Assembly: GCA_001683735.1 (NCBI GenBank)
Contig: LUGG01000023.1
Location: forward strand, 434,001-498,000
Source: Grifola frondosa
Lineage: Eukaryota > Basidiomycota > Agaricomycetes > Polyporales > Grifolaceae
Direction of reading: 5' to 3'
DNA length: 64,000 nucleotides
Shown: piece by piece, positions 32,641-46,444 of the stretch
Numbering within the stretch: position 1 is the stretch's first letter
Layout: every line of letters begins with the position of its first letter
Translations under genes and position numbers: made by a program
Notes under the pieces: model-generated
Told to the model about the DNA's origin: nothing
Seen by the model: the letters and a program-made list of their open reading frames with translations, nothing else
Databases searched by the model: none

Positions 32641-33671
32641 TCACGTTCTCCGGAGTCTGGCGGCGCGAAAGCGTGCATGTGCATCTCTCTCGTTCTCATT
32701 GCCATGCAACGGCTACGTTCTGACCTTTCCACGCTTCGATTAGCGGGTACAAGTTCGTTCGTCCTGCTCAATCTGATATCTCTCCGCAGTCCCTTCTATA
32801 CTGAATGCATGCACAGAGTCAGCGCTGGCGAGTGTCGCCTTCGCGCTCCCCACCACGTAGTTTCCCACCGCAAGACGCAGCACGAAGGCGCGGATGCCGT
32901 TGAATCTGGTTCTGGTGCGCTACAGTGACGAGTCGACGACATATGTCCGTTCAGCCACAGACATCAGCAAAAGTCAAATGTACCTTTTTCGTCTTTTTCT
33001 GTCTTTTTCCGCCTGAAAAAAGGCAAAATAAGTATGAATAAGTTCTAAAGTAGATCCAATCGCTTTTTTGCTTAATTCACCTGTAGATAAGTTGTTCAGG
33101 CTTTGACAGTGAGTCAGGAGATATGACAAGCACAGTCTAAATGAAAATCAGCGGCGAAGTGTCGAAGCCGGCTTACAAAAAGTTCGCCACTCCCGCAGAG
33201 ACCCATCCATCTGACCATTCAGTAAAAAATAGAATCATTCACTCATAGACTAATTTGTGCAGCATTTTCCGGCACCAGTTTGCTAGTTGGACAGAAAATT
33301 AGCTGTTCAGTCACTCATCAAGTCATACAGCATTCAAAACAGTCAAATAAGCGTGTAATTGAAATGACAAACATGATTGCACTACGAACAGTGTCCGACA
33401 GGTCAAGACTAGCTCAGACAAGAAAGGATAAAAGACACAAATGACGGAAAGGCGTTTAAGAAGCAACCCGGTCAAGAAACTAAGCCTCCGACTCAGCCAG
33501 GCATCCAGTGCGCTCAGAAAGAAATAAGTTAAATACAGAGAAAAGTGCGCGCATAGAAAGCAGTGAGCAGCAGTTAAGACAATTATCAAGCAGCGGCTCA
33601 TATGCACCTGGTAAATGAGAAAATAGTAAATACAATGAACAGTGAGCTCATTAGGTTCTGCAGACATACCA
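32640..33671. other. AT-rich, gene-free left flank of the Plavaka/DUF6532 block
   Basis: No gene. From 32962 the sequence becomes AT-rich and carries scattered short motifs of the type TTCAGTCA or GAGTCA. This is what would be expected at the subterminal region of a DNA transposon. See the candidate element. Confidence 0.45.
32962..33047 (+). repeat. Putative left terminal inverted repeat
   Basis: Starts CATCAGCAAAAGTC, passes through CTTTTTCGTCTTTTTCTG and ends near AAAATAAGTATGAATAAG. It aligns, with many mismatches and one gap, to the reverse complement of 46037-46121. No other inverted partner was found in the window. Confidence 0.4.
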
Positions 33672-35971
33672 CTAGGTGTCCGTGGTGTAGTCCACAAGGA
33701 TCGCACGACACTCGTCTTCGTCTTCGCTGGACGAGACCACAACCGGCTGCTGGACTTTGTCGATTAGCTTGTTGATTGCGTCCGCCGTCAGTGTAGATGC
33801 CGATTGTGCATACTGCCGCGTCTTAGCGCTGTGCTTGTCAATGCTGAATTGGTGTTCGACTTGAGACTTCTGCCCGCCCTTCCGATTATCCGCCTTCTGC
33901 TTGCCCTTCCGATCATCCGCCTTCCCAACGCGGAGGCTGCCATCGCGGTTAACAGTGATCTGCCTTTTTTCGAACAGATGGAAGGCACGTTCAACCTGAG
34001 AACATAGTTAGATAGATTTCGCTCGAATAATGTGACTTACTGCGACGGCGGCAAGTGCGATGACGCCAACCGGCCTGTCATCCTTGTTGAAGAGGTCGGG
34101 TACAGAAACTGCGTGCCTCGTTGTATTGAAGTGATGGAAGAGTGCGCCAGTTACAAATTGAGAGCGAAAAAGCCCCCTGAACATCTGTAACGAAACATCA
34201 TGTAGCAAGTATGTAATTTTGATTTAAAAAAAAACTTCGCACTCACTCTTTTGTTTTCCTCCTTGAAAGGGGCAAGTTCATAGAGGAAGCGCATGTCCTC
34301 GAGCATCTTTTTTGAGTACTTGGCACGAGCAGCGAAGTCGTCCCGATATTTGGCGCTGGAGAGGAAGAGCTCGTGCACTAAGTCGATTGCATCGTTTCCG
34401 GTACGCGAGCGCCACTCGCAAAGAGCCTGGTTTGCCTGAGAAAGGGATGTATCAGACTTCAACATGCAAAACAAACTCGACTTACGTGAGGAACGTATAT
34501 TAACATGGACTTTGGCTTGATGACAGTTGTACCACCATACACGGCGTCAAAGATCTTCGAGATGACTTCCGCCACCTCTGCATCACTCCCAAGCGTCCAC
34601 GGCTGCATGCGAGTACCCGCGTATCGTTTGAGAGTCCCAAGGAATACCCGACTCCATACACCATTGTCCCTTGCACCGACAGGGACTGGCGTTTTCTTTC
34701 CGGACCTACTGTTTGGCGCCGATCTGGGCAAGACCTCCTCTTGGGTCTCTTCCTTGATCATTGATATGTCTATGTTCTCGTTCGTGGACTCGTCATTGAA
34801 GTTAACAATTGACTAGATTTTTCAAGAACCAAAAAAATATGAACGAAGCCTCAGGTGAGTCAAAAGAAGCAATACGCACGCTACTGGTAACTCTCTTCCC
34901 ATTCTTGATAGGGCTATTGACAGCGGCAGCACGCTCAACCTCCTCATCTTCACTGGAGAATCCACCACCTTCGGATACCTTCACCGGTGTCTTGTTCTTA
35001 CGTGCAGGTGTCTGATTTTTCTTACCCGTGGATTTGGCGGGAGTGGAAGTGCTGATCGGGACAATTGCAGAAGCAACGGAAAAGCTTGACGACGTCGTGC
35101 GACCACTGTTTGTGCTATTGGGCACAGTGGACTCCTGCCCGGGCTGATCAGGCTGAGTCTCACTGACGCTTCCAGCTGGCAGATTCCAATTGTCGATTAG
35201 TCCGGACACCGCTGCAACTGATGTTGCTTCCGGTGGCTTGCTGGAGGACCTAGTATACTAACTTAATTTCCAATCTAGCTTCACGGTGCAAGAAACACTC
35301 ACTTTTTCTTCGCAGCGGCCTTCGTGGTCTTCACCGCCGGTGCAGTCGTGCTTTTCGCAGTGCTCTTGTTCTTGCATATCTCCAAGATCTCTGGTTCAAC
35401 GGGCTCCTCGTTCTGGCCGGCTTGCGAATGAATTTGACCTCCTCGCGAAGACCCGTCTTCGCAACCTTCTTAGGTGGTACGACCTCAAGATCTGTAAGCT
35501 CTGACATCATCTCCCAGGCTCTGGAACCTCGAGCTACGTCCTCATCCTCTTCGTCGTCTCCGTCATCGTCTGATTCTTCGGCCACGGTGTCAATATCTTG
35601 CATCTCGGTGTCCTCGTGTCCAATCTCCTCGATGGAAGGAGACCGCCGTCGCTTCTTCGACAAATTCTTGGTCCTTTCGATTTCTTCCTCGTCTTCGATA
35701 TTGCTCAGGGCATAGGTACGCTCCAGCTTCGCATTCGTTTTTTCTTCGGCTTGATGACGCGATTCTCCTCCTGGCGGACATCAGCGTCAGCCATATCGTC
35801 CTCCATGTCGGCAATCTTCTGCACAGATTTTTTCTTCGCGGCTGCGGTCAACTGTTTGGCCTTCGCCTCAGCAGCTTTGTCTTCTTTTACTTGCAGAGAA
35901 GAACGGCGTGGAGCAGGAAGATCTGGGAGAGCCGGACGTTTAGTGGCATTTGAAGGCCGGGTTTTAGCCAT
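33672..35971 (-). CDS. DUF6532 protein, Plavaka-associated
   Basis: Six exons on the minus strand, approximately 35971-35303, 35249-34880, 34812-34486, 34435-34247, 34187-34041 and 33998-33672. The N-terminal half is lysine-rich and acidic (KRPALPDLPAPRR, then a DDDGDDEEDEDV tract), nuclear-looking. The C-terminal half has the DUF6532 pattern: WSRVFLGTLKRYAGTRMQPW, YVPHV, ANQALCEWRSRTGNDAI, FRSQFVTGALFHHF, RPVGVIALAAVAVERAF. The tail ends EDEDECRAILVDYTTDT. Two one-base losses break exon 1 (an A run at about 35741-35747, and near 35416). I know DUF6532 genes as frequent, poorly understood neighbours of KDZ-type transposons; a role in transposition or silencing is inference. Divergent from the transposase with a 253 bp gap. 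Confidence 0.75.
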
Positions 35972-36224
35972 TGAATGGACGAATTGAGAGTGAAGTAGCG
36001 GTTGAAAACTTGGGAGATGATATGGTAGGTTGCCACGCAATCCAGCGCCAAAAATTCACTCATTAATTTAGCTGCCAGACTTCGCGTCACATCAGGATTG
36101 GATGATCTAATCTGAGGTAGGCGCAACTTCAGATTTACGCGGACACAGTACTGATTTGATATATTTTTCTCCCCCACGTTCGTGCTCTAAACCTACCCAC
36201 CACCCCCAAGATCTTCCAATTCAA
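35972..36224. promoter_or_regulatory. Shared divergent promoter region, DUF6532 / Plavaka transposase
   Basis: 253 bp between the two start codons. It includes an AT-rich stretch with 'gatatatttttc' near 36157. By position it must drive both genes of the element. No defined factor site recognised. Confidence 0.5.
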
Positions 36225-39200
36225 ATGGTCCACAAATCGTCTTCACAGTCCGGTCGTCCTAGGCGACTGGTGACAGATCCCCTCCACTACCCATGTCTCG
36301 CCTCCACGTGCTCAAGGTGGTTCAGAAATCGGGCCGGCAGAACAAAACACATGAGGACGTACCACTGGAATGACGCTTGGCGACCTGCTGAGGATGAACC
36401 ACTCCGGATGGCCGAAGATGCAGGGGACACTACGGACACAGGGGAATATGCGAGCTCTGGTGAGTAGTAGTGTTAGTATGTTATGATGATTATACTGATA
36501 AAAAATCATTTTAAGATCTCGCAGGAATGATTCTTGTCGAAGAAGTCGAAGAAGTCGATGACGTACCTTCCAGAGAAGAACTTAGTGATGGCTATGAGGA
36601 AGATTGCCGAATGGAAGTAGACGTTCGAGGTGAGTCACGCGATTGAATTTAACGCGGCTGCCCGCATTGCTAATTTACCAATCCTGGAACAAGGCAGCGA
36701 CGAAGAAGAAGCAAACACAGACTTTGATAGCAGTAGCGAAGGTGGTCAAGCAGAAACGGAGGATGAATTTGAGGATGATGCTGCGGAACACCAGCCGGAC
36801 GACCACGAACCTGATGATCCCGATCCGGAAGGGATAATCAGAGAGTTCCACGAGGATATAGATGGTAAGAACCATCATTTTGTTGATCGCGTACTCACGC
36901 GTAGTTTGTGTTAGGAAGGCCCTGCGACAAAGATGGCATTTACTTACCTCCGGGAACACCTCCGACATTGCCACAGCCTCCATCCAAGGATGATTGGACC
37001 CCGTATCGCACACGCATCGAGTTTGAGATGGCGGAACTACTTTACAAGCGCGAACAAATGCCGGCTGGAAACATCAACGCTCTGTTGAATCTCTGGGCAG
37101 CCTTCGTTTTGAAATACAACGATCACCCCCCATTCGCAAATCATAAGGATTTGTATAAAACCATCGACTCTACAATCCTGGGCGACGTCAAATGGGAATC
37201 GTTCAAGATGAGATATTCAGGCAATTTACCTGACGGCGACATACCTCCATGGATGACCCAGACTCACGATGTGTGGTTCCGCGATCCTCATACCGTCGTT
37301 CAACATATGCTCGCAAACCCGGATTTTAACGGCGAGATGGACTACGCTCCTGTGCGCGAGTTTTATGATGGCCAGCGTAGGTTGAAGAATTTCATGTCTG
37401 GCGATTGGGTTTGGGATCAGGCGGTGAGTCGAAAAACTCGTTTGCATTTGAAACTGCTTAACTTCAGATGTTGCAGAACATAATTGCGGCTGATCCTCAA
37501 ACAAACGGCTCTGCGTTTGTGCCAATAATCCTTGGCAGTGACAAAACGACTGTATCCGTAGCGACAGGCCAAAACGAATACTACCCGTTGTATCTCTCCA
37601 TCGGGAATGTTCATAATAGCGTGCGTCGTGCCCATAGGAATGCGGTTGCTCTCATTGGCTTTCTCGCGATTCCGAAGAGTACGTCTAAGCTTTCATTACT
37701 TCTCAATTTATTAACAAATGTTAATCCGGACAGCTGACCGGGAGTATGCGAACGATGTAATGTTCCGAAAATTCCGCCGACAACTATTCCACTCATCTCT
37801 TGCACATATTCTGCGATCGCTCAAGCCCGGGATGACTACCCCCGAAGTTACACGCTGCGCTGACGGGCATTTCAGGCGCGTCATCTATGGTCTCGGCCCA
37901 TACATCGCCGACTATCCTGAGCAAGCTCTGCTTGCATGTATTGTCCAGGGCTGGTGCCCAAGGTCTGTCAGCTGTCATCTATTTTGCGACATTCACTGAT
38001 TTAACTTCCAGGTGTACTGCGAATAAAGATGATCTTGATGGCGCAGATGGTGGTCGTCGCTCGCGTGACCACACGGAAGAACTGGTGGCTGCTCACGAAC
38101 TGGGGGACCTGTGGGACGACTATGGACTTGTCGGAGATATTGTAGTGAGTTAGAATGAGGGGCTCATTGCGAACGTCCTCCGCACGCTACTAACACTTCA
38201 TTATCAGCCCTTTACCAACGATTTTCCTCGCGCGGACATCCATCAACTCATCGCACCCGATATTTTGCATCAACTCATCAAGGGCACGTTCAAGGACCAT
38301 CTTGTCGACTGGGTGGAGCAATACCTAGTCCAGACACACGGAAAAACGCGTGCGCAGGGCATCTTAGCTGATATTGATCGTCGGTGAGTGGTTTTTCAGT
38401 TCTGATTGTGCGCAAATTATAATAAAATCACTTCAGAATCGCTGTCGTACCTCCGTTCTCAAACCTGAGAAAATTCCACCAAGGTCGAGGGTTCAAACAA
38501 TGGACCGGAGATGATTCGAAAGCGCTGATGAAGGTAGCTATTGGAATTATTCTGTTATTAATATATGAGCTTATACTTTGACTACAGGTTTACCTTGCGG
38601 CAATCGTAGGCTATGTTCCTCGAGAAATGGTGCAGGCGATCCGCGCCTTTCTGGAGTTCTGTTACATTGTGCGGCGCGGCGTCCATACGCCGGAAACATT
38701 GGCCGCCCTCCAGGATGCTCTGCAATGCTTTCACAGGCACCGCGCCATCTTCCAGACGTCTGGCGTTCGCCCTGAAGGTTTCTCCCTTCCCAGGCAACAC
38801 TCTCTTGTCCATTACTACTCATTGATTTGGGCATTTGGTGCGCCCAATGGATTGTGTTCTTCCATCACAGAATCCAAGCACATCAAGGCTGTGAAGGAGC
38901 CGTGGCGACGCTCCAGTAGACACGAGGCTGAGGGGCAAATGCTCTTGACCAACCAGCGACTCGACAAGCTTGCTGCATCAAGAGTCGACTTTACTGAGCG
39001 AGGAATGCTCAAAGGGACTTGTCTTTTGGATGCTTTCCTTGCCTTGAGTAGGTTTCCCGTGTCATACGTGCATTTGATAGTGCTAACAATCTTCTACCAT
39101 CCAGACCCTGATGCGGACCCTTCCCTTTATGGCCTCCATGATTCGGACCCTCCAGATGCAACTGAGACTGTCAGTACTAAGCGACGAAAAGATGATGACG

Positions 39201-39969
39201 GAGCTGTAGAGGGCCGACGGTATTGTCATATGTGGTGTTGGCGGCCACAGTTCGTGAGTGCCAGCGCGTTTTTCTTTGAAGTATGTACTATGTGCTGATT
39301 CCGTGCATAGAAAGGCAGCATTCTCGTCATGCACATGCTCTTGGTGCCGAGATCAATCAACCTCGCCTACCGGAGCTTATTCGCCGGTTTCTATATGATA
39401 TGAAGCACCCTGAGAGCGAAGTTCCAGGACTAGAAGTAAGCATTGATGAATGTCCTGAGTTTCTTGGGCAACTCTCGGTGTTTTATTCAGCCGCAGCAAC
39501 CTACTACGCGCCTAGTGACCCCTCCGGAACTGGAGGGATGCACCGCGAGCACATTCGTGCGACGCCGCTATGGTGGAAGTCCGCACCACGATTTGACTGT
39601 GTTTTCGTTGAACGCTATCCTGAGATAGAAGGTTTTTTGGGGCTTGGCGTCGCACGGGTACTCCTTTTTTTCTCCTTCAAACATGAGGCATCTACATATC
39701 CGTGCGCCCTCGTTCGATGGTTCAAGCGTATTGCCGACGAACCAGACGAGGATACTGGGATGTATATCGTCAAACCGGAGACCAGACGCCGGTTACCTGT
39801 GGTCTCGGTGATTCATGTGGACTCAATTATCCGTGCTGCACACCTTATCGGTGTTTACGGAAATACACGCATACCAGTTGGTATGCGGGATTTCCATTCA
39901 CTTGATGCATTCCGCGCATTCTATGTGAATAAATTCGTGGACCATCATGCATTCGAAACAATATTCTAA
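36225..39969 (+). CDS. Plavaka transposase (KDZ superfamily)
   Basis: Twelve exons: 36225-36459, 36525-36629, 36694-36864, 36915-37423, 37477-37678, 37734-37962, 38012-38144, 38208-38383, 38437-38533, 38588-39047, 39105-39253, 39311-39969. They total 3125 nt; one extra base gives 1041 aa. The N-terminus has a C2H2-like finger (C-x4-C, H-x3-H in CLASTCSRWFRNRAGRTKHMRTYH), then an acidic linker. The core carries signature blocks ILGSDKTTVSVATGQNEYYPLYL, GNVHNSVRRAHRNAV, GWCPRCTANKDDLD, FTNDFPRADIHQLI, LLDAFLAL and the C-terminal SLDAFRAFYVNKFVDHHAFE. The catalytic core is RNase H-like in this superfamily. The only lesion is one missing C near 39214 (GGGCC where GGGCCC restores EGPTVLSYVVLAAT). 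A near-intact copy suggests recent activity. Confidence 0.88.
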
Positions 39970-40065
39970 TGCTCTCATACGTCGTTCAGTCTGTTAGCCA
40001 TTTGTACTTGCTAAACCTCGTTTCGCATAGCCTTCAAGTTTCTTTACCTACAGATAGCCTGTCTT

Positions 40066-40478
40066 CCTTGATTCTATCTTCTTTTTCTCGACTCCCGCAA
40101 CATGCATGCTCTCTCTCACTTCCTACCCCATCGCGGTCCGAGCGCCTCACGTGCTCGTTAATATTAACTGGCGTACTATGCCTCCAGTACCACGTTATCA
40201 TCAACCGCCACAAATCGTTCGCGCTTCCCTCCAGCAAATCTTAATATTCCAGTTCTGATTTTTAATACTCTGCTGTCTTGTCTCCTCCGATCTCCACTCG
40301 ATTCTGTCTTTTTTCCCTTGACTCCCGCAACATGCATGCCCTCTCTCACTCGCTACCTATCGCGGTCCGAGCGCCTCACGCGCTCGGGCCCGCTGACAAC
40401 CGTATGCCTCCAATATTACATTATCATCAACCACCACAGGCCCTTCGCGCTTCCCTCCAACATATCTCAATACTCCAG
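40066..40478 (+). repeat. Tandem duplication of about 185 bp
   Basis: Two copies, 40066-40252 and 40297-40478, offset about 230 bp. Both carry 'gactcccgcaacatgcatgc', 'atcgcggtccgagcgcctca', 'tatgcctcca' and 'ttatcatcaacc' in the same order. They lie just downstream of the transposase stop, inside the candidate element. Divergence of roughly 15-20% suggests an old duplication. Confidence 0.7.
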
Positions 40479-40829
40479 CTTCCTCTGTCACCTCTACGTC
40501 TCCATCGACCTTCTATATCAACCCTATATGCGAGGCCGCAGAATGGCTCAAATGCTTTTTTCAATCGTCGGTGTCAAATCCTCTGCGGATTCGCAGAAGG
40601 CGAGATATGTCACCAGACTTGTCAGTTAGTCCACTGTTCCTTTGCTTCTTTTTCATCTGGTATACATTGTTTGCCCCAGCTGTCCAGCTCGTCCTCGTCT
40701 GTGGCGAATCTACGCTGGGCAGCTGTGTCAGACAACCCCAATGCAGCGCATTGGAACACCGTCCACCCCTGTTGATAACCTGATCAAGGTTGACACTGGC
40801 CATCTATAGATCAGGCCGTTCAGTGTCTC

Positions 40830-41625
40830 TGCAAAATATGGCATCCCGATGACATCCCAGCCGCTTTCACTTGCCACGGGCGCGACGCGCTTTGCGCCCA
40901 GCCTACCTCGTCCTCCCAAGCTGCACCGCTAGTCGTTCAGCAAAAGCTCTTTGCGACTCGCAACACCCAATTACCCTCTTCCGTTACGCCTTCCATACAT
41001 CCCTCCCCTCCATGACCACTTTCCGATGCAGGCGATTCGACTAGGCTAGCATCCGATCTGGCTTCTGGCTGCAATCTCGTACCTATCAAGTGTTTTGTGC
41101 ACGAAGTTCTTCGCCGCTCTCGGACACCCACCGGTGTCCTCCAGACTACTCAGATATCTAGAGGCCGTCCGGGGGAAGATCACAGAGCTTATCCGAAAAG
41201 ATAAGACAGCGCCAGCGACCAGCGATTGCGTGCATGAAGATGCCGCTGCCGTATTGTTTGTGGTGAGCTATCTCATGATGAGATGCTTGGTTGCGATTTA
41301 ATGGATAGCGGACACCTCATCATAGAGCCGACGGTGTCGCATATCGTGAGATTGTGTGACTCACGTCTCCCACCTTCTCCGGATCCCTTCGAATCTCAAC
41401 GTGGTCCAGCAAACTTACCGTCTGCGAAAACCCAAGTCCCTCTCCCTCCTCTTCTTCCCCTTCCCTCCTCCCTCCTGTCCTCGTCGGGCACTCTTGGCAT
41501 GCCTTATCCTGGCTTCGAAGTTCATGCAAGATGGGTCCTATTCCAATCGGGCTTGGGCTAAACTGGCTGGATTTCCTCCGGGGGAGCCCGGGCGTTGCGA
41601 ACGCACACTCGGCCAAGCTCAGGCC
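40830..41625 (+). pseudogene. PCL/PHO80-type cyclin fragment
   Basis: Reads in pieces as an N-terminal and cyclin-box fragment. IWHPDDIPAAF-like sequence near 40840 is followed by HEVLRRSRTPTGVLQT (41100), LLRYLEAVRGKI (41148) and RRALLACLILASKFMQDGSYSNRAWAKLAG (41485-41570). The last block is the conserved cyclin core of Pcl-type cyclins, partners of Pho85-like kinases. The frame changes at least twice (near 41148 and 41400) and the box is cut off after RCERTLG, where clathrin sequence follows in the same frame. It cannot encode a complete cyclin. Family assignment is from motif recall. Confidence 0.6.
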
Positions 41626-44600
41626 GCAGCAAACTCACCGAGGGTGCGTTTGCATGTAGTAGCACCTACATGATATGAAATGACCTTTGTTTACTAGTAG
41701 GGGATTCTTCGTACCGCGCAAGTCATTAAGGCGTTTAAGCAGGCACCTGCTCCTCACGGTGGGCTATCTCCCATTCCACAATACTTCGATATTCTGGAGA
41801 AGGGCGAATTAAACCACCTGGAGTCTGTGGAACTTGCTCGACCGCTCCTGCCTGAGCAGGGTAGGAAACAATCGTTGGAGAACGGCTGAAGAAGAACCAG
41901 GAACAAGGTCAGCTTGCGCGGGTCCATGTTTTTCGGCTATTACTCACCTGTCTGAGCACAGCTCACATGCAGCAAGGAGCTCGGAGATATCGTCCGGCTG
42001 CATGATATGACCCAAGCACTCAGCGTGTACCTCAGGGCAAACATGCCGAACAAGTTTATCGCTTGCTTCGCGGAAACAGGTCAAACCGACAAAACGTGCT
42101 ATATGCGAAGAAAGTTGGTTACACCCAGACTTCGTCGGCCTCCTGCAACATATTACGCACACCAACCCAGAGAAAGCGCGGAATTTGCTACTCAGCTGGC
42201 CAACGATGAGGCAGGACTGCTTGTCGATATCGAGAGGGTAGTAGCCATTTTTTGTCGTCGTCTTTATCTAGTCGATCTGATGAATGTATTGCTAGGTGGT
42301 CGATATCTTCATGTCGCAGAACATGATCCAGCCCGCAACCTCGTTTTTGCTGGATGCTCTCAAAGATAACAAGCCGGAGCAGGGCCATCTGCAGACGCGT
42401 CTGCTGAGAATGAACTTGATTCACGCGCCGTAGGTCGCAGATGCTATCCTCTGGAACATTTAGGCTCTCGAGCACTACGAGTACCTTGCGGATATCAAGC
42501 GCGTCATCGTGCACACGACTGTCTTCCAGCCTGATGTGAGTGACATTACTATCAAGACCCAGCTTGCTCTCACAGTTTTGCATTAGTGGCTCGTCAACTA
42601 TTTCAGTCGTTTGACGACGGAGCAGTCGTTCGCGTGCATGCAAGAGATGCTCCGGATTAACATTAGGCAGAATCCGCAGATCGTTGTGCAAATCGCGACC
42701 AAATACTCTGATATTCTCGGACCTGTCAAGCTCATTGAAATGTTTGAATCGTTCAAGAGCTTCGAGGGTGCGTCCTTTCCGTATCTTGTATTGATATGGA
42801 AGCTGATCCCTGTGTATAGGTCTTTACTACTATCTCGGGTCGATTGTCAATCTCAGTCAAGACCCCAAAGTCCACCTCAAGTGTACCCAGGCCACTACCC
42901 GTACTGGTCAAATCCGCGAGGTGGAGCGTATTTGCCGAGAGAGCAATTTCTACAACTCCGAGAAGGTCAAGAACTTCCTTAAAGCAGTGAAGCTCGCCGA
43001 CCAGCTCCCCCTCATCATTGCTTGCGATCGTTTCGACTTCGTGCACGATCTTGTTCTCTACTTGTATCAGAACAGCTTGACGAACTTCATCGAGATGTAC
43101 GTCACTCGCGTCAACTCTGTCCGGACACTACAAGTCATTGGTGGGCTTCTAGATGTAGACTGTGACGAGACGACAATTAAGTCTTTATTGGTGTTGGTCC
43201 CGGCAACTTCCCAATTGACGAGCTCGTTCACGAGGTCGAAGCCAGGAATAGGCTGAAGTTGATCCTGCCATGGCTGGAGGCTCGTGTGCAGGCCGGGAGT
43301 CAGGATTCCGCGGTGTTCAATGCCCTCGCGAACATCTACATTGACTCGAACAACAACCCCGAACAACTCTTGGAAGAGAACAACGTAAGGTCATTCGATT
43401 GTTTGCCATCTGCCAATGCTGATATCATTTACACCAGCGTTATGAGCCGCTCGTTGTTGAAAAATTCTGCGAGGCCCGTGGTCCTTATTTGGCCTACATC
43501 GCATATGCGAAAGGCTTCTGTGATGACGAGCTCATTGCAATCACCAATGATAACTCTATGTTCAAGCAGCATGCTCGGTACCTTGTTCGGCGTCGTCAGC
43601 CTGAGCTATGGGCACAGGTCCTTCAGCCCGACAATATGCACAAATGCCAGCTCATCGATCAGGCAAGTCTCAATTAATTCTTTACCATACTAAAATGTTG
43701 ATCTTCAATATGTAGATCGTTGCGACTGCTCTCCCCGAGTGTACTGATCCGGACGACGTGTCGGTCACTGTCAAAGCGTTCCTGTCAGCGGATCTACCGA
43801 TTGAGCTTATCGAGCCCTCGAGAAGATCATCCTCGAACCGTCGTCGTTCACCGACAACCGGAACTTGCAGAACCTCATGTTACTGACCGCCATTCGCGCG
43901 GACAAGGGCAAAGTCGTGGGCTATATCGACAAGTTGCAGAACTACGACACAGCCGAGATTGCAAATATTGCTATTGAACATGGCCTCTACGAGGAAGCGT
44001 TCATGATCTACAAGTACGAGCAGCATGCCATGGCCATCAACGTTCTCGTCGAACATATCGTATCCCTGGACCGCGGCGTCGAGTATGCGAACAAGGTCAA
44101 CAAGCCGGTGGTTTGGAGCAGATTGGCTAAGGCACAGCTTGATGGTCTACGAATTAAGGATGCCATTGGTGAGTTTCTCAATATCCATCAAGATGCAATT
44201 CACCTCACACTCTCGCTTGTATAGAATCCTACATCACTGCTGAGGATCCCTCGAATTTCTTGGAGGTTATCGAAATCTCGAACCGCGCAGGCAAATTCGA
44301 CGATCTCGTCCGCTACCTCCAGATGGCTTGCAAGTCTCTCAGGGAACCGAAGATTGACACAGAGTTGGCGTACGCATATGCAAAGACGGATCGTCTGCAC
44401 GATATGGAGGATTTCCTGAGCATGACCAACGTAGTGGACATCTTGGAAGTGGGAGAAAAACGTTTCGAGAACGAACTCTATCAGGCTGCCAAACTGTTGT
44501 TTACAACCATTTCGAACTGGGCGTGTCTCGCGACTATCCTCATCTATCTCGGTGAGAACCAAGGTGCTGTTGAGAGTGCTCGGAAGGCTGCCAATACTCA

Positions 44601-45600
44601 GTGAGTGTCGTGTCTTCATTTACGTTAAACTCTGGGATCTGACAATGTTCCAGAGTATGGAAACAAGTTCATGCGGCATGCATAGAGAAGAGCGAAGGAT
44701 GACAACCCAATTCTGCTCCGCGCAAGGTCTAATCAGATTTCGCGCAAGGTGTGTGTCGGCTGTATCCTTCAAGATCTTGAATATACTATCACTTCCTTCT
44801 GAGCATCTTCAGTGCCTTGGCGGCGCCGCACCCATCGTTCTCTCTGCTGTTGCTGGTCTCATCGGTTATGGATTGTAGTCTTGACCGCATCCTATCCGGC
44901 ATTCATCAATCGGCCACTCAAATGTTCCATCAGTCAAAATTCCACGAGCACATTCCTTTCAAACATCTCTGCCACGCCTCCCACGATACCGCCGCTCGAC
45001 CTTCGCCCTAATTTCCAAAGTACCCTCACCGTTCCCACGTCGGGGGTGCCATGCAAGTCGCGTCTTGCCCCACCTACGCACCCAACTGTCATCGGCAGCC
45101 CTCGAACAAACAAAGTGTCCGTAATCTATGAGGATGGCTCCTCGGCACGTACCGCTAGCTTCGTCACCGCGCCTTCTGTGCCCACGTCTGAAGGGGATCC
45201 CCTTTTATCTCAGGGGACTATGCTGCATCAAATACCAGCGACGCAGACATCGAGGACGCAGAGGACATTCAAATGACAGGCGAGTTCTCTGAGGGACTAT
45301 ACGACATTGACCTCGGCGCGGAATCGCAGAGCAGTTTTACCAGTGTGCACAGCGTAGCAACACAGCTTTCATCGCTGACAGAGGCGTTTCTCCAGTGGCG
45401 CTAGCTGAAAGGCATGTCATTTAGCAGTGACTAGTTCGTCCAGCATCCAGTCCTACAAGAACAGCCAACGTTGCTCACGGATCTGCTAACAGTTCTCTTC
45501 CCCCGTATTGAGCACGCGCGTGTCGTCCGCGTGTTCCAGCAAATTGATCAGATTCCTCTCGTTCGCTCCTATCTCATCGCGGTGGTGTGTACTAGCTCTT
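41618..45600 (+). pseudogene. Clathrin heavy chain, internal fragment
   Basis: Clathrin heavy chain forms the legs of coat triskelia. This copy covers roughly residues 380-980 and a last piece near 1190-1215 of a ~1680-residue protein. It starts at AANSPR|GILRTAQVI and includes [82 protein letters not shown] and LTDLLTVLFPRIEHARVV (45490-45540). The N-terminal propeller and the C-terminal trimerisation domain are absent. Frame breaks are frequent (42124, 42176 and others), many being single-base run contractions. An unrelated ~0.7 kb insert lies at about 44715-45440. It begins in an open frame shared with the cyclin fragment. A complete functional copy must exist elsewhere in the genome. Confidence 0.85.
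44715..45440 (+). other. Non-clathrin insert inside the clathrin fragment
   Basis: Clathrin homology stops after VWKQVHAACIEK (about 44690) and resumes near 45445, with about 200 residues of clathrin missing in between. The insert ends with an open, stop-terminated acidic coding tail (DADIEDAEDIQMTGEFSEG, LSSLTEAFLQWR, stop at 45402-45404). This looks like the end of another gene that I cannot name. It may be a third captured fragment. Confidence 0.5.
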
Positions 45601-45670
45601 ACCTGTGCGGGTGGTGACTTGTGGCTGATGTATGCGTTGTAGTTGTGCAATCAAAGAAGGACACTCAGTA

Positions 45671-45861
45671 ATCACTCAAGTTCATCAGTCAGTCAACAAT
45701 CACGACCAAAATATTTGAAGCGCTTCAGCCGTAGGATGATCAACTGTATCAGATTGTAAGTCATTCATTTTTCAGTGCGAAAAGCTCGTTCAGCATCACT
45801 GAAGTTCAACAGTCGGTCATACAACCCAAAATATTTACAGTGCTTCAGCCGTAGGATAATT
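45671..45861. repeat. Two-copy subterminal repeat, about 70 bp each
   Basis: Copies at 45671-45741 and 45796-45861 share ATCACT(C/G)AAGTTCA, CAGTC(A/G)GTCA, CAAAATATTT and CTTCAGCCGTAGGAT. AT-rich and non-coding. Their place about 260-450 bp inside the putative right end is typical of subterminal transposase-binding repeats; that role is inference. Confidence 0.6.
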
Positions 45862-46036
45862 ACTTATTGAAGTTTTTTAACGGCCTGATGTGCTTGGAAA
45901 ATAGTGAAACAGCCACAAAAGGGAATTCAGAGACTTCAGACGTGGCGTCGAACTTTGCATATTTGTTTCTGATTTGCATCTTTTTCGGTGCTTAATGCTC
46001 TGTTTTGTCTGGAAAGCAGTTTGAAATAGTGATCTT

Positions 46037-46121
46037 ATGTGTCTTATGCATCTTAATTTACTTATTTTAAGACAAAAAGTGAGATAAAAGTGAGATAAGT
46101 GAAATCCGAGTTTTGCTGATG
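46037..46121 (-). repeat. Putative right terminal inverted repeat
   Basis: Reverse complement begins CATCAGCAAAACTC, then has CTCACTTTTATCTCACTTTTTG and AAAATAAGTAAATTAAG. It pairs with 32962-33047. The outermost 11 bases match exactly; the rest is diverged. No flanking duplication seen. Confidence 0.4.
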
Positions 46122-46444
46122 GACGCGATGACATGACATCAACGCGCGGGCTTGTGGCACTGAGAAAGTAAACGAGGTCGCTTTGGGCTATGCGGAAATA
46201 TCATCCTTCGAGAGAATATTGCACCTGAGCACGAGGTCCATGTGTAACAGAACTTAAAGAACTGTTCAACTGAACACAGACAGTATAGAAAATGCGTATC
46301 TAAAACTACATGATTTGAGCAAGTAAGGATGATAGAGTGGAGTAGAGATAGGAAAGATAAATGTCCGAGTACCATTGACAACAGTTCTCGTCGGGAACAC
46401 ATCGCACGCGGAGATAAAGGAGGATGCCTGATATACATGCACGA

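Follow-up and report, generated by a model that had tools for sequence, protein, structure and literature searches.

Introduction

How do pieces of housekeeping genes come to lie between the ends of a DNA transposon? This question is raised by a stretch of 64,000 nucleotides of the Grifola frondosa genome (contig LUGG01000023.1, positions 434,001 to 498,000; the window), in which truncated cyclin and clathrin heavy chain sequences share about 13 kb with a Plavaka transposase. In the contig labels used here, the window is C20:434001-498000 in a genome of 39 Mb and 64 contigs. A sequence-only reading had proposed that this span is a single Plavaka/KDZ transposon with outward-facing repeats at both edges, a near-intact transposase, a DUF6532 partner and captured fragments of host genes. 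Mutator-like elements and Helitrons are known to capture host genes. So are plant CACTA elements (PMC13317346) and, in fungi, hAT elements (PMC6710886) and elements bearing TET/JBP genes (PMC12730594).

Here, we report that the span is one inserted element and that this cyclin piece recurs in related elements across the genome, where it is joined with fragments of other genes. The account that we consider probable has three parts: a PlavakaB transposon inserted as a unit, its cargo consists of DNA-level transduplicates of three host loci, and the cassette entered transposase lineages that had mostly diverged already, its fragments being passengers.

Results

A single transposon with a 2-bp target duplication

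Positions 32962-46121 (13,160 bp, plus strand) are one DNA transposon, inserted as a unit with a 2-bp GA target duplication. The left terminal inverted repeat, CATCAGCAAAA (32962-32972, plus strand), and the right one, which reads TTTTGCTGATG on the plus strand (46111-46121, minus strand), form a perfect pair over 11 bp and were located by motif search and by the alignment edges of relatives. The alignment with the relative on C32 begins exactly at 32962, and those of four relatives (C32, two places on C2 and one on C3) end exactly at 46121. Across the whole window, the exact 11-mer CATCAGCAAAA has one forward and one inverted occurrence (32962 and 46111), against a mean of 0.1 occurrences over both strands in 60 first-order simulated windows. 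The flanks read CACAGA/CATCAG on the left and TGATG/GACGCG on the right, which places the GA duplication, a feature without strand, at 32960-32961 and 46122-46123. A paralogous copy of the flanking DNA lies ~67 kb downstream on the same contig (about C20:547.4-548.1 kb; 83%/76% to the flanks); in the alignment it has no element and a single GA, where the joined flanks of the window read GAGA. The single element of ~13 kb proposed earlier, together with its edges and outward-facing repeats, is thus borne out by the ends, the duplication and the empty site, the last two having been suggested as checks. The similar inner sequence that had also been described is another matter: 11 bp are identical, but beyond them the likeness of the two ends is loose (25 of the first 40 bases). 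The right terminal region (45665-46121, plus strand) is 83-84% to the relatives on C32 and C2.

A 213-bp element at C20:543513-543725, which is bounded by perfect copies of CATCAGCAAAA and TTTTGCTGATG and flanked by GA left and right, is probably a miniature non-autonomous relative.

Transposase and classification

The transposase gene (36905-39969, plus strand) is split over several open frames, its extent being estimated from these frames and from homology. Four stop-free stretches match positions 1-243 and 286-325 of the 325 in the profile PF18759, and positions 244-285 are unmatched; the evidence for a near-intact transposase, as described earlier, is thus confined to these stretches. Helitrons have neither terminal inverted repeats nor a target duplication, and the 11-bp inverted repeats and GA duplication set the element apart from them. 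PlavakaB elements have 5'-CATCA..TGATG-3' termini and a target-site duplication of 2-3 bp, and Plavaka is grouped with CACTA/EnSpm-like transposases, outside KDZ (PMC12730594). The element has the same termini, a 2-bp duplication (GA here; AC and CA in relatives) and a Plavaka transposase, and it fits PlavakaB on these three characters, as a CACTA-like rather than a KDZ (Kyakuja, Dileera, Zisupton) element. Its transposase frames match PF18759 in Pfam scans, and its duplication is 2 bp as opposed to 8 bp for Zisupton, so that only the first half of the earlier Plavaka/KDZ label stands, in keeping with the separation of Plavaka from KDZ in PMC12730594.

Host DNA between the transposon ends

Copied host DNA spans 40067-45645 (5,579 bp) and derives from three source contigs, C19, C26 and C3. 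It starts with a tandem copy of the cyclin 5' region (40067-40252, plus strand; C19:113040-112856; 81% to the source), followed by the captured 5' part of a pas1-type cyclin gene (40252-41620, plus strand; C19:113085-111708; 89.5%) and the central part of a clathrin heavy chain gene (41621-44696, plus strand; C26:66047-62863; 88-93%), which has an internal deletion of ~118 bp at 42457/42459. Behind these lie a third host locus (44697-45451, no strand assigned; C3:732372-732184 and 731275-730696; 87%) and clathrin 3' pieces (45452-45645, plus strand; C26:62056-61925 at 93% and C26:61346-61292 at 79%). The joins are nearly blunt, and the cyclin and clathrin pieces are in sense orientation relative to the transposase. 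The truncated cyclin and clathrin sequences noticed earlier on the transposase strand are both present, with sources on C19 and C26, but the host-gene content is not limited to them, as the third locus had been overlooked. Only the last ~150 bases of this third locus entered a genome-wide query, and BLAST rows below 45, 40 or 150 columns, depending on the comparison, were left out throughout.

The source cyclin on C19 is a 554-aa open frame within the G. frondosa database protein A0H81_11726, named G1/S-specific cyclin pas1. Named mushroom relatives stand at 38-52% identity among the 120 of 591 matches listed, and the Pfam cyclin match scores 19.2 bits, just below the cut-off of 21. The best clathrin matches are given by C26, with open frames along the entire gene. 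Near C26:65585 this native gene seems to change frame without room for an intron, perhaps through an assembly error.

The clathrin segment 42459-44696 (2,238 bases) aligns with 2,244 bases of C26 over 2,244 columns and shows no intron-sized gap, while the native coding frames shift along the same segment. This would point to copying at the DNA level, from unspliced sequence. A spliced, RNA-borne capture was considered, as the C32 and C38 copies both resume at C19:112493; it was rejected, since no splice signal is visible there by eye and the clathrin alignment is free of gaps of intron size.

Related cassettes across the genome

A genome-wide search with 39900-41700 gave 33 rows, which resolve into at least 11 loci including the window, with the native gene on C19 and a C26 row (the clathrin tail of the query) set aside. 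As these searches score the best candidates only, each locus count is a minimum. In every one of the 11 non-native cyclin loci found, Plavaka transposase DNA precedes the cyclin on the same strand, at a distance of ~2 kb or less in ten of them and 11.9 kb at C5. The cyclin is followed by clathrin DNA at three loci (window, C32 and C2) and by fatty-acid-synthase DNA at five (C5, two C36 copies, C38 and C3), with the Pfam family FAS_I_H detected in C5. A likely source of the latter is C8:896954-900353, with a second match at C2:3183728-3185529 (83%); the C5 match consists of adjacent parts at 70%, 95% and 83%. Judged from these loci, host-gene capture is a property of the element family and not of the window copy alone.

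Two outcomes that would have spoken against a single gene-carrying transposon had been named in advance: Plavaka copies ending near 33.0 and 40.5 kb, and the cyclin/clathrin block occurring without the transposon. Neither was seen among the copies examined. The C32 relative, which has CA on both sides, shows the same succession of parts between its two ends, passing through cyclin and clathrin, and the window, C32 and C2 are the only places where the joined block was seen, each time behind Plavaka transposase DNA; the separate cyclin and clathrin genes sit on C19 and C26. This relative (C32:235666-274442, 38.8 kb, with its CA duplication) has ~20 kb of additional DNA separating its left part from the transposase. 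Two separate clathrin captures within C32 were considered and rejected: its two clathrin copies have 60 derived changes in common over 597 shared columns, as after an internal duplication, and the second part, of 170 columns, is uninformative.

Junctions link several of the cassettes. The 10-bp filler CGGTATTCCG, or a close variant, stands at the tandem-duplication junction of C5, C36a, C36b, C16 and C22, and C36c has a similar tandem duplication without it. The cyclin boundary C19:113085 is common to the window, C38 and C5. Extra right-end motifs lie near relatives at C36:56794 and 56961 and at C2:3152944, 3153240 and 3154549 (three right ends within C2:3152944-3154559). At C3:1329643-1339600, a Plavaka-like element of 9,958 bp sits inside the cyclin piece that a different Plavaka element had captured; its ends are similar, with one mismatch in the left, AC stands on both sides, and the native cyclin on C19 serves as its empty site.

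The cyclin cassette and the age of the transposase lineages

The seven of the 11 loci with enough transposase DNA for a tree fall into lineages A (window and C32), B (C36a, C38 and C3) and C (C16 and C22). Across 11 between-lineage pairs without C22, identity is 62-68% in the transposase core and 76-85% in the cyclin. Within lineages, the corresponding values are 79% and 79% in A, 76-85% and 80-85% in B, and 76% and 70% in C. On the transposase tree, the inner branches leading to A, to B and to both together measure 0.19-0.30, whereas both stems have zero length when the cyclin tree is made to contain lineages A and B. In the topology test, which covered ten of the 12 aligned cyclin sequences (C2 and C36b excluded), two full transposase-like topologies were rejected (approximately unbiased, AU, p = 0.0055 and 0.0001), and the native gene is the closest relative of six of the 11 cyclin copies. 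Set against the divergence of the transposases, that of the cyclins suggests that the cassette seems mostly younger than the transposase split, having been recaptured or exchanged.

The clathrin piece allows a comparison within lineage A. C32 has 320 private clathrin changes against 118 in the window, whereas the C32/window ratio of private transposase changes is 1.09-1.30 with five outgroups, all distant and pulling the ratios toward 1. The window clathrin thus looks younger than that of C32, as if recaptured or refreshed. At coding sites where the window and C32 agree against the native clathrin gene, 47 of 55 changes are synonymous, which suggests that the captured history shared by the two was short.

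The C2 relative at C2:3475000-3490000 is strongly decayed: C-to-T or G-to-A substitutions make up 135 of its 186 private clathrin changes, a pattern that methylation or RIP-like decay would leave.

Coding changes in the captured pieces

Synonymous changes were counted on hand-picked native coding segments rather than on a full gene model. Of the private cyclin changes, 21 of 61 in the window and 26 of 88 in C32 are synonymous, with ~28% expected; a shorter comparison gave 13 of 27 for the window and 11 of 34 for C5, with the expectation again at 28%. Over these cyclin counts the range is 30-48%. Private clathrin changes are synonymous in 39 of 88 cases for the window and 97 of 237 for C32. Stops are present in both the cyclin and the clathrin copies. 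Maintenance of the captured proteins by selection was rejected on these grounds, with cyclin changes near neutral, a weak clathrin bias and the stops, and the fragments look like passengers that would be non-functional as proteins.

Divergent frames and DUF6532

Open frames divergent from the transposase occupy 33672-36055 (minus strand); they have DNA relatives only on C32 (68-70%) and match no Pfam family above the cut-off. The DUF6532 partner reported earlier for this span was not detected: Pfam scans of five minus-strand frames, and then of four with E up to 10, gave no DUF6532, and a genome-wide profile search with PF20149 (DUF6532) had no match within the element. Elsewhere, among the matches listed, a Plavaka match is found no more than 5 kb from at least 16 of the 18 DUF6532 loci, in all 16 in divergent orientation, and none of these loci coincides with the 11 cyclin-bearing loci; DUF6532 seems to mark a different set of Plavaka elements. 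Sets of Plavaka matches with identical or near-identical scores, some inverted, occur at C28:249-255 kb and 330-336 kb, at C12:1337-1340 kb and C41:24-27 kb, and on C7, C37 and C39, suggesting recent duplication or unmerged haplotypes.

Discussion

Origin of the cassette

How could the host DNA have arrived behind the transposase? In the account that we favour, it would have been joined there with little or no homology, through imprecise repair after excision. Alternatively, neighbouring elements may have excised aberrantly, a route put forward for Pack-CACTA (PMC13317346), and the neighbouring ends at C36 and C2 fit this route without proving it. The cassette of cyclin followed by clathrin or fatty-acid-synthase DNA would then have entered lineages that were mostly split already, and it may have spread by transfer between elements, as the filler junction of lineages B and C suggests, by re-copying from the native gene, as the window clathrin suggests, or by both.

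Several observations weigh against parts of this account. In the five between-lineage pairs that include C22, the transposase core stands at 66-70% and the cyclin at 45-74%, so that no discordance is seen; in most of its pairs the cyclin of C22 has diverged at least as far as its transposase. The cyclin tree, whose deep nodes are weakly supported, admits a grouping of A or of B by itself (AU p = 0.118 and 0.073). The cyclin C32/window ratio of 89/61 is near that of the transposase and fits shared descent of the cyclin part; it gives no reason to suppose that the window copy recaptured its cyclin. The window and C2 have almost the same junction between clathrin and the C3 locus, in line with a single capture from which both descend. 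The common position of the cassette is less firm at C2 and C36c, which matched only the 3' end of the transposase region within the DNA compared, and at C5, where the transposase lies 11.9 kb off. Finally, the private clathrin changes of the window and C32 are 39-47% synonymous, above the neutral 25-33%; this bias could possibly reflect time spent under constraint, or capture from a diverged allele.

Wholly independent captures of the cyclin by each Plavaka lineage, with the native locus as a preferred insertion or repair partner, would explain why the cyclin tree is star-like with the native gene near its centre, and why the window clathrin looks so much younger than that of C32 despite like transposase rates. 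However, the filler junction common to lineages B and C indicates that at least those cassettes are related by descent and not by separate capture, and the window, C38 and C5 begin at the same cyclin boundary. We regard this explanation as unlikely.

The opposite extreme, a single ancient capture before the lineages split, followed by vertical inheritance of a slowly evolving cyclin that perhaps serves the element (for example as a promoter), draws on the position and strand of the cyclin, alike at all 11 loci found, and on that same filler. A 5' non-coding part nearer to the native gene than the open reading frame part, in the window, C5, C36a, C16 and C36c, would also suit it, but there is no extra non-coding conservation in C32, C38, C3 or C2. 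Changes in the reading frame look close to neutral, six cyclin copies are closest to the native gene, and the zero-length stems of A and B contrast with the long branches of the transposase tree. An ancient capture is accordingly quite improbable.

A functional variant holds that Plavaka selectively retains and renews pieces of essential host genes (those for cyclin, clathrin heavy chain and fatty acid synthase), placed in sense behind the transposase, as a shield against silencing or as a promoter in the cyclin 5' region; repair from the native gene would refresh these pieces, or lineages would exchange them. If the shield were real, small-RNA or methylation silencing of the element would strike vital genes. 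We hold this variant to be doubtful in much the same degree as the ancient capture.

That the locus is a composite of a shorter Plavaka element ending near 40 kb and an unrelated duplicated host block, with a right terminus from another element, could be read from the extra right-end motifs near the C36 and C2 relatives, but it is very improbable, as both ends fit one insertion (the same 2-bp duplication and a paralogous empty site that joins the flanks) and C32 keeps the same left-to-right order with its own CA duplication. An assembly chimera or plain segmental duplication of host genes is scarcely credible: although the element is known from one assembly, similar chimeras, decayed and different, lie on other contigs, and pieces from three contigs are enclosed by transposon ends.

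Comparison with known systems

The favoured account, passenger fragments acquired by PlavakaB elements at the DNA level, has precedents in part. The PlavakaB elements of Agaricomycotina share with the present one the CATCA..TGATG termini, the 2-bp duplication and the Plavaka transposase, but their cargo in the available part of the description is a TET/JBP dioxygenase gene, whereas here pieces of cyclin, clathrin, fatty acid synthase and another locus are joined (PMC12730594). As here, the same gene occurs in diverged lineages across fungal DNA-transposon superfamilies, sometimes in like position and orientation, and passive transfer or parallel capture has been discussed for its spread; TET/JBP is carried as a whole gene thought to aid escape from silencing, in contrast to the truncated host-gene pieces here (PMC12730594).

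The transduplication of histone H3 by hAT elements in Dothideomycetes is likewise a case of a housekeeping gene amplified in a fungal DNA transposon; it involves a spliced transcript of one gene, and the present case unspliced DNA of several genes, in another superfamily and phylum (PMC6710886). Transduplication in that paper's definition is a partial or complete gene copy between transposon termini, amplified in the genome, and this is what the cyclin-bearing loci present. Plant Pack-CACTA elements resemble the present element in the uptake of host genomic sequence by a CACTA-like transposon (PMC13317346), but Pack-TYPE elements are non-autonomous (PMC8903248) and the element here carries a predicted transposase gene. 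The giant Plavaka repeats of Amoebidium also combine a transposase with extra genes over tens of kilobases, but many of those genes are tyrosine recombinases in tandem clusters, not host-gene fragments (PMC11244446).

In the literature searched, as far as its texts were at hand, we found no description of a Plavaka family with joined pieces of several housekeeping genes, and the listed titles of work on Grifola transposons held nothing on point. On sequence grounds, host-gene capture here would be of a known kind, transduplication, and what appears new is its occurrence in Plavaka with joined fragments of several housekeeping genes. That relatives combine this cyclin piece with parts of other genes suggests that Plavaka-type elements pick up or swap host-gene fragments repeatedly. 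G. frondosa offers a workable system for studying how CACTA-like elements acquire and exchange cargo, since a single genome of 39 Mb shows the source genes and copies that differ in age, together with the junctions, a filler and an empty site.

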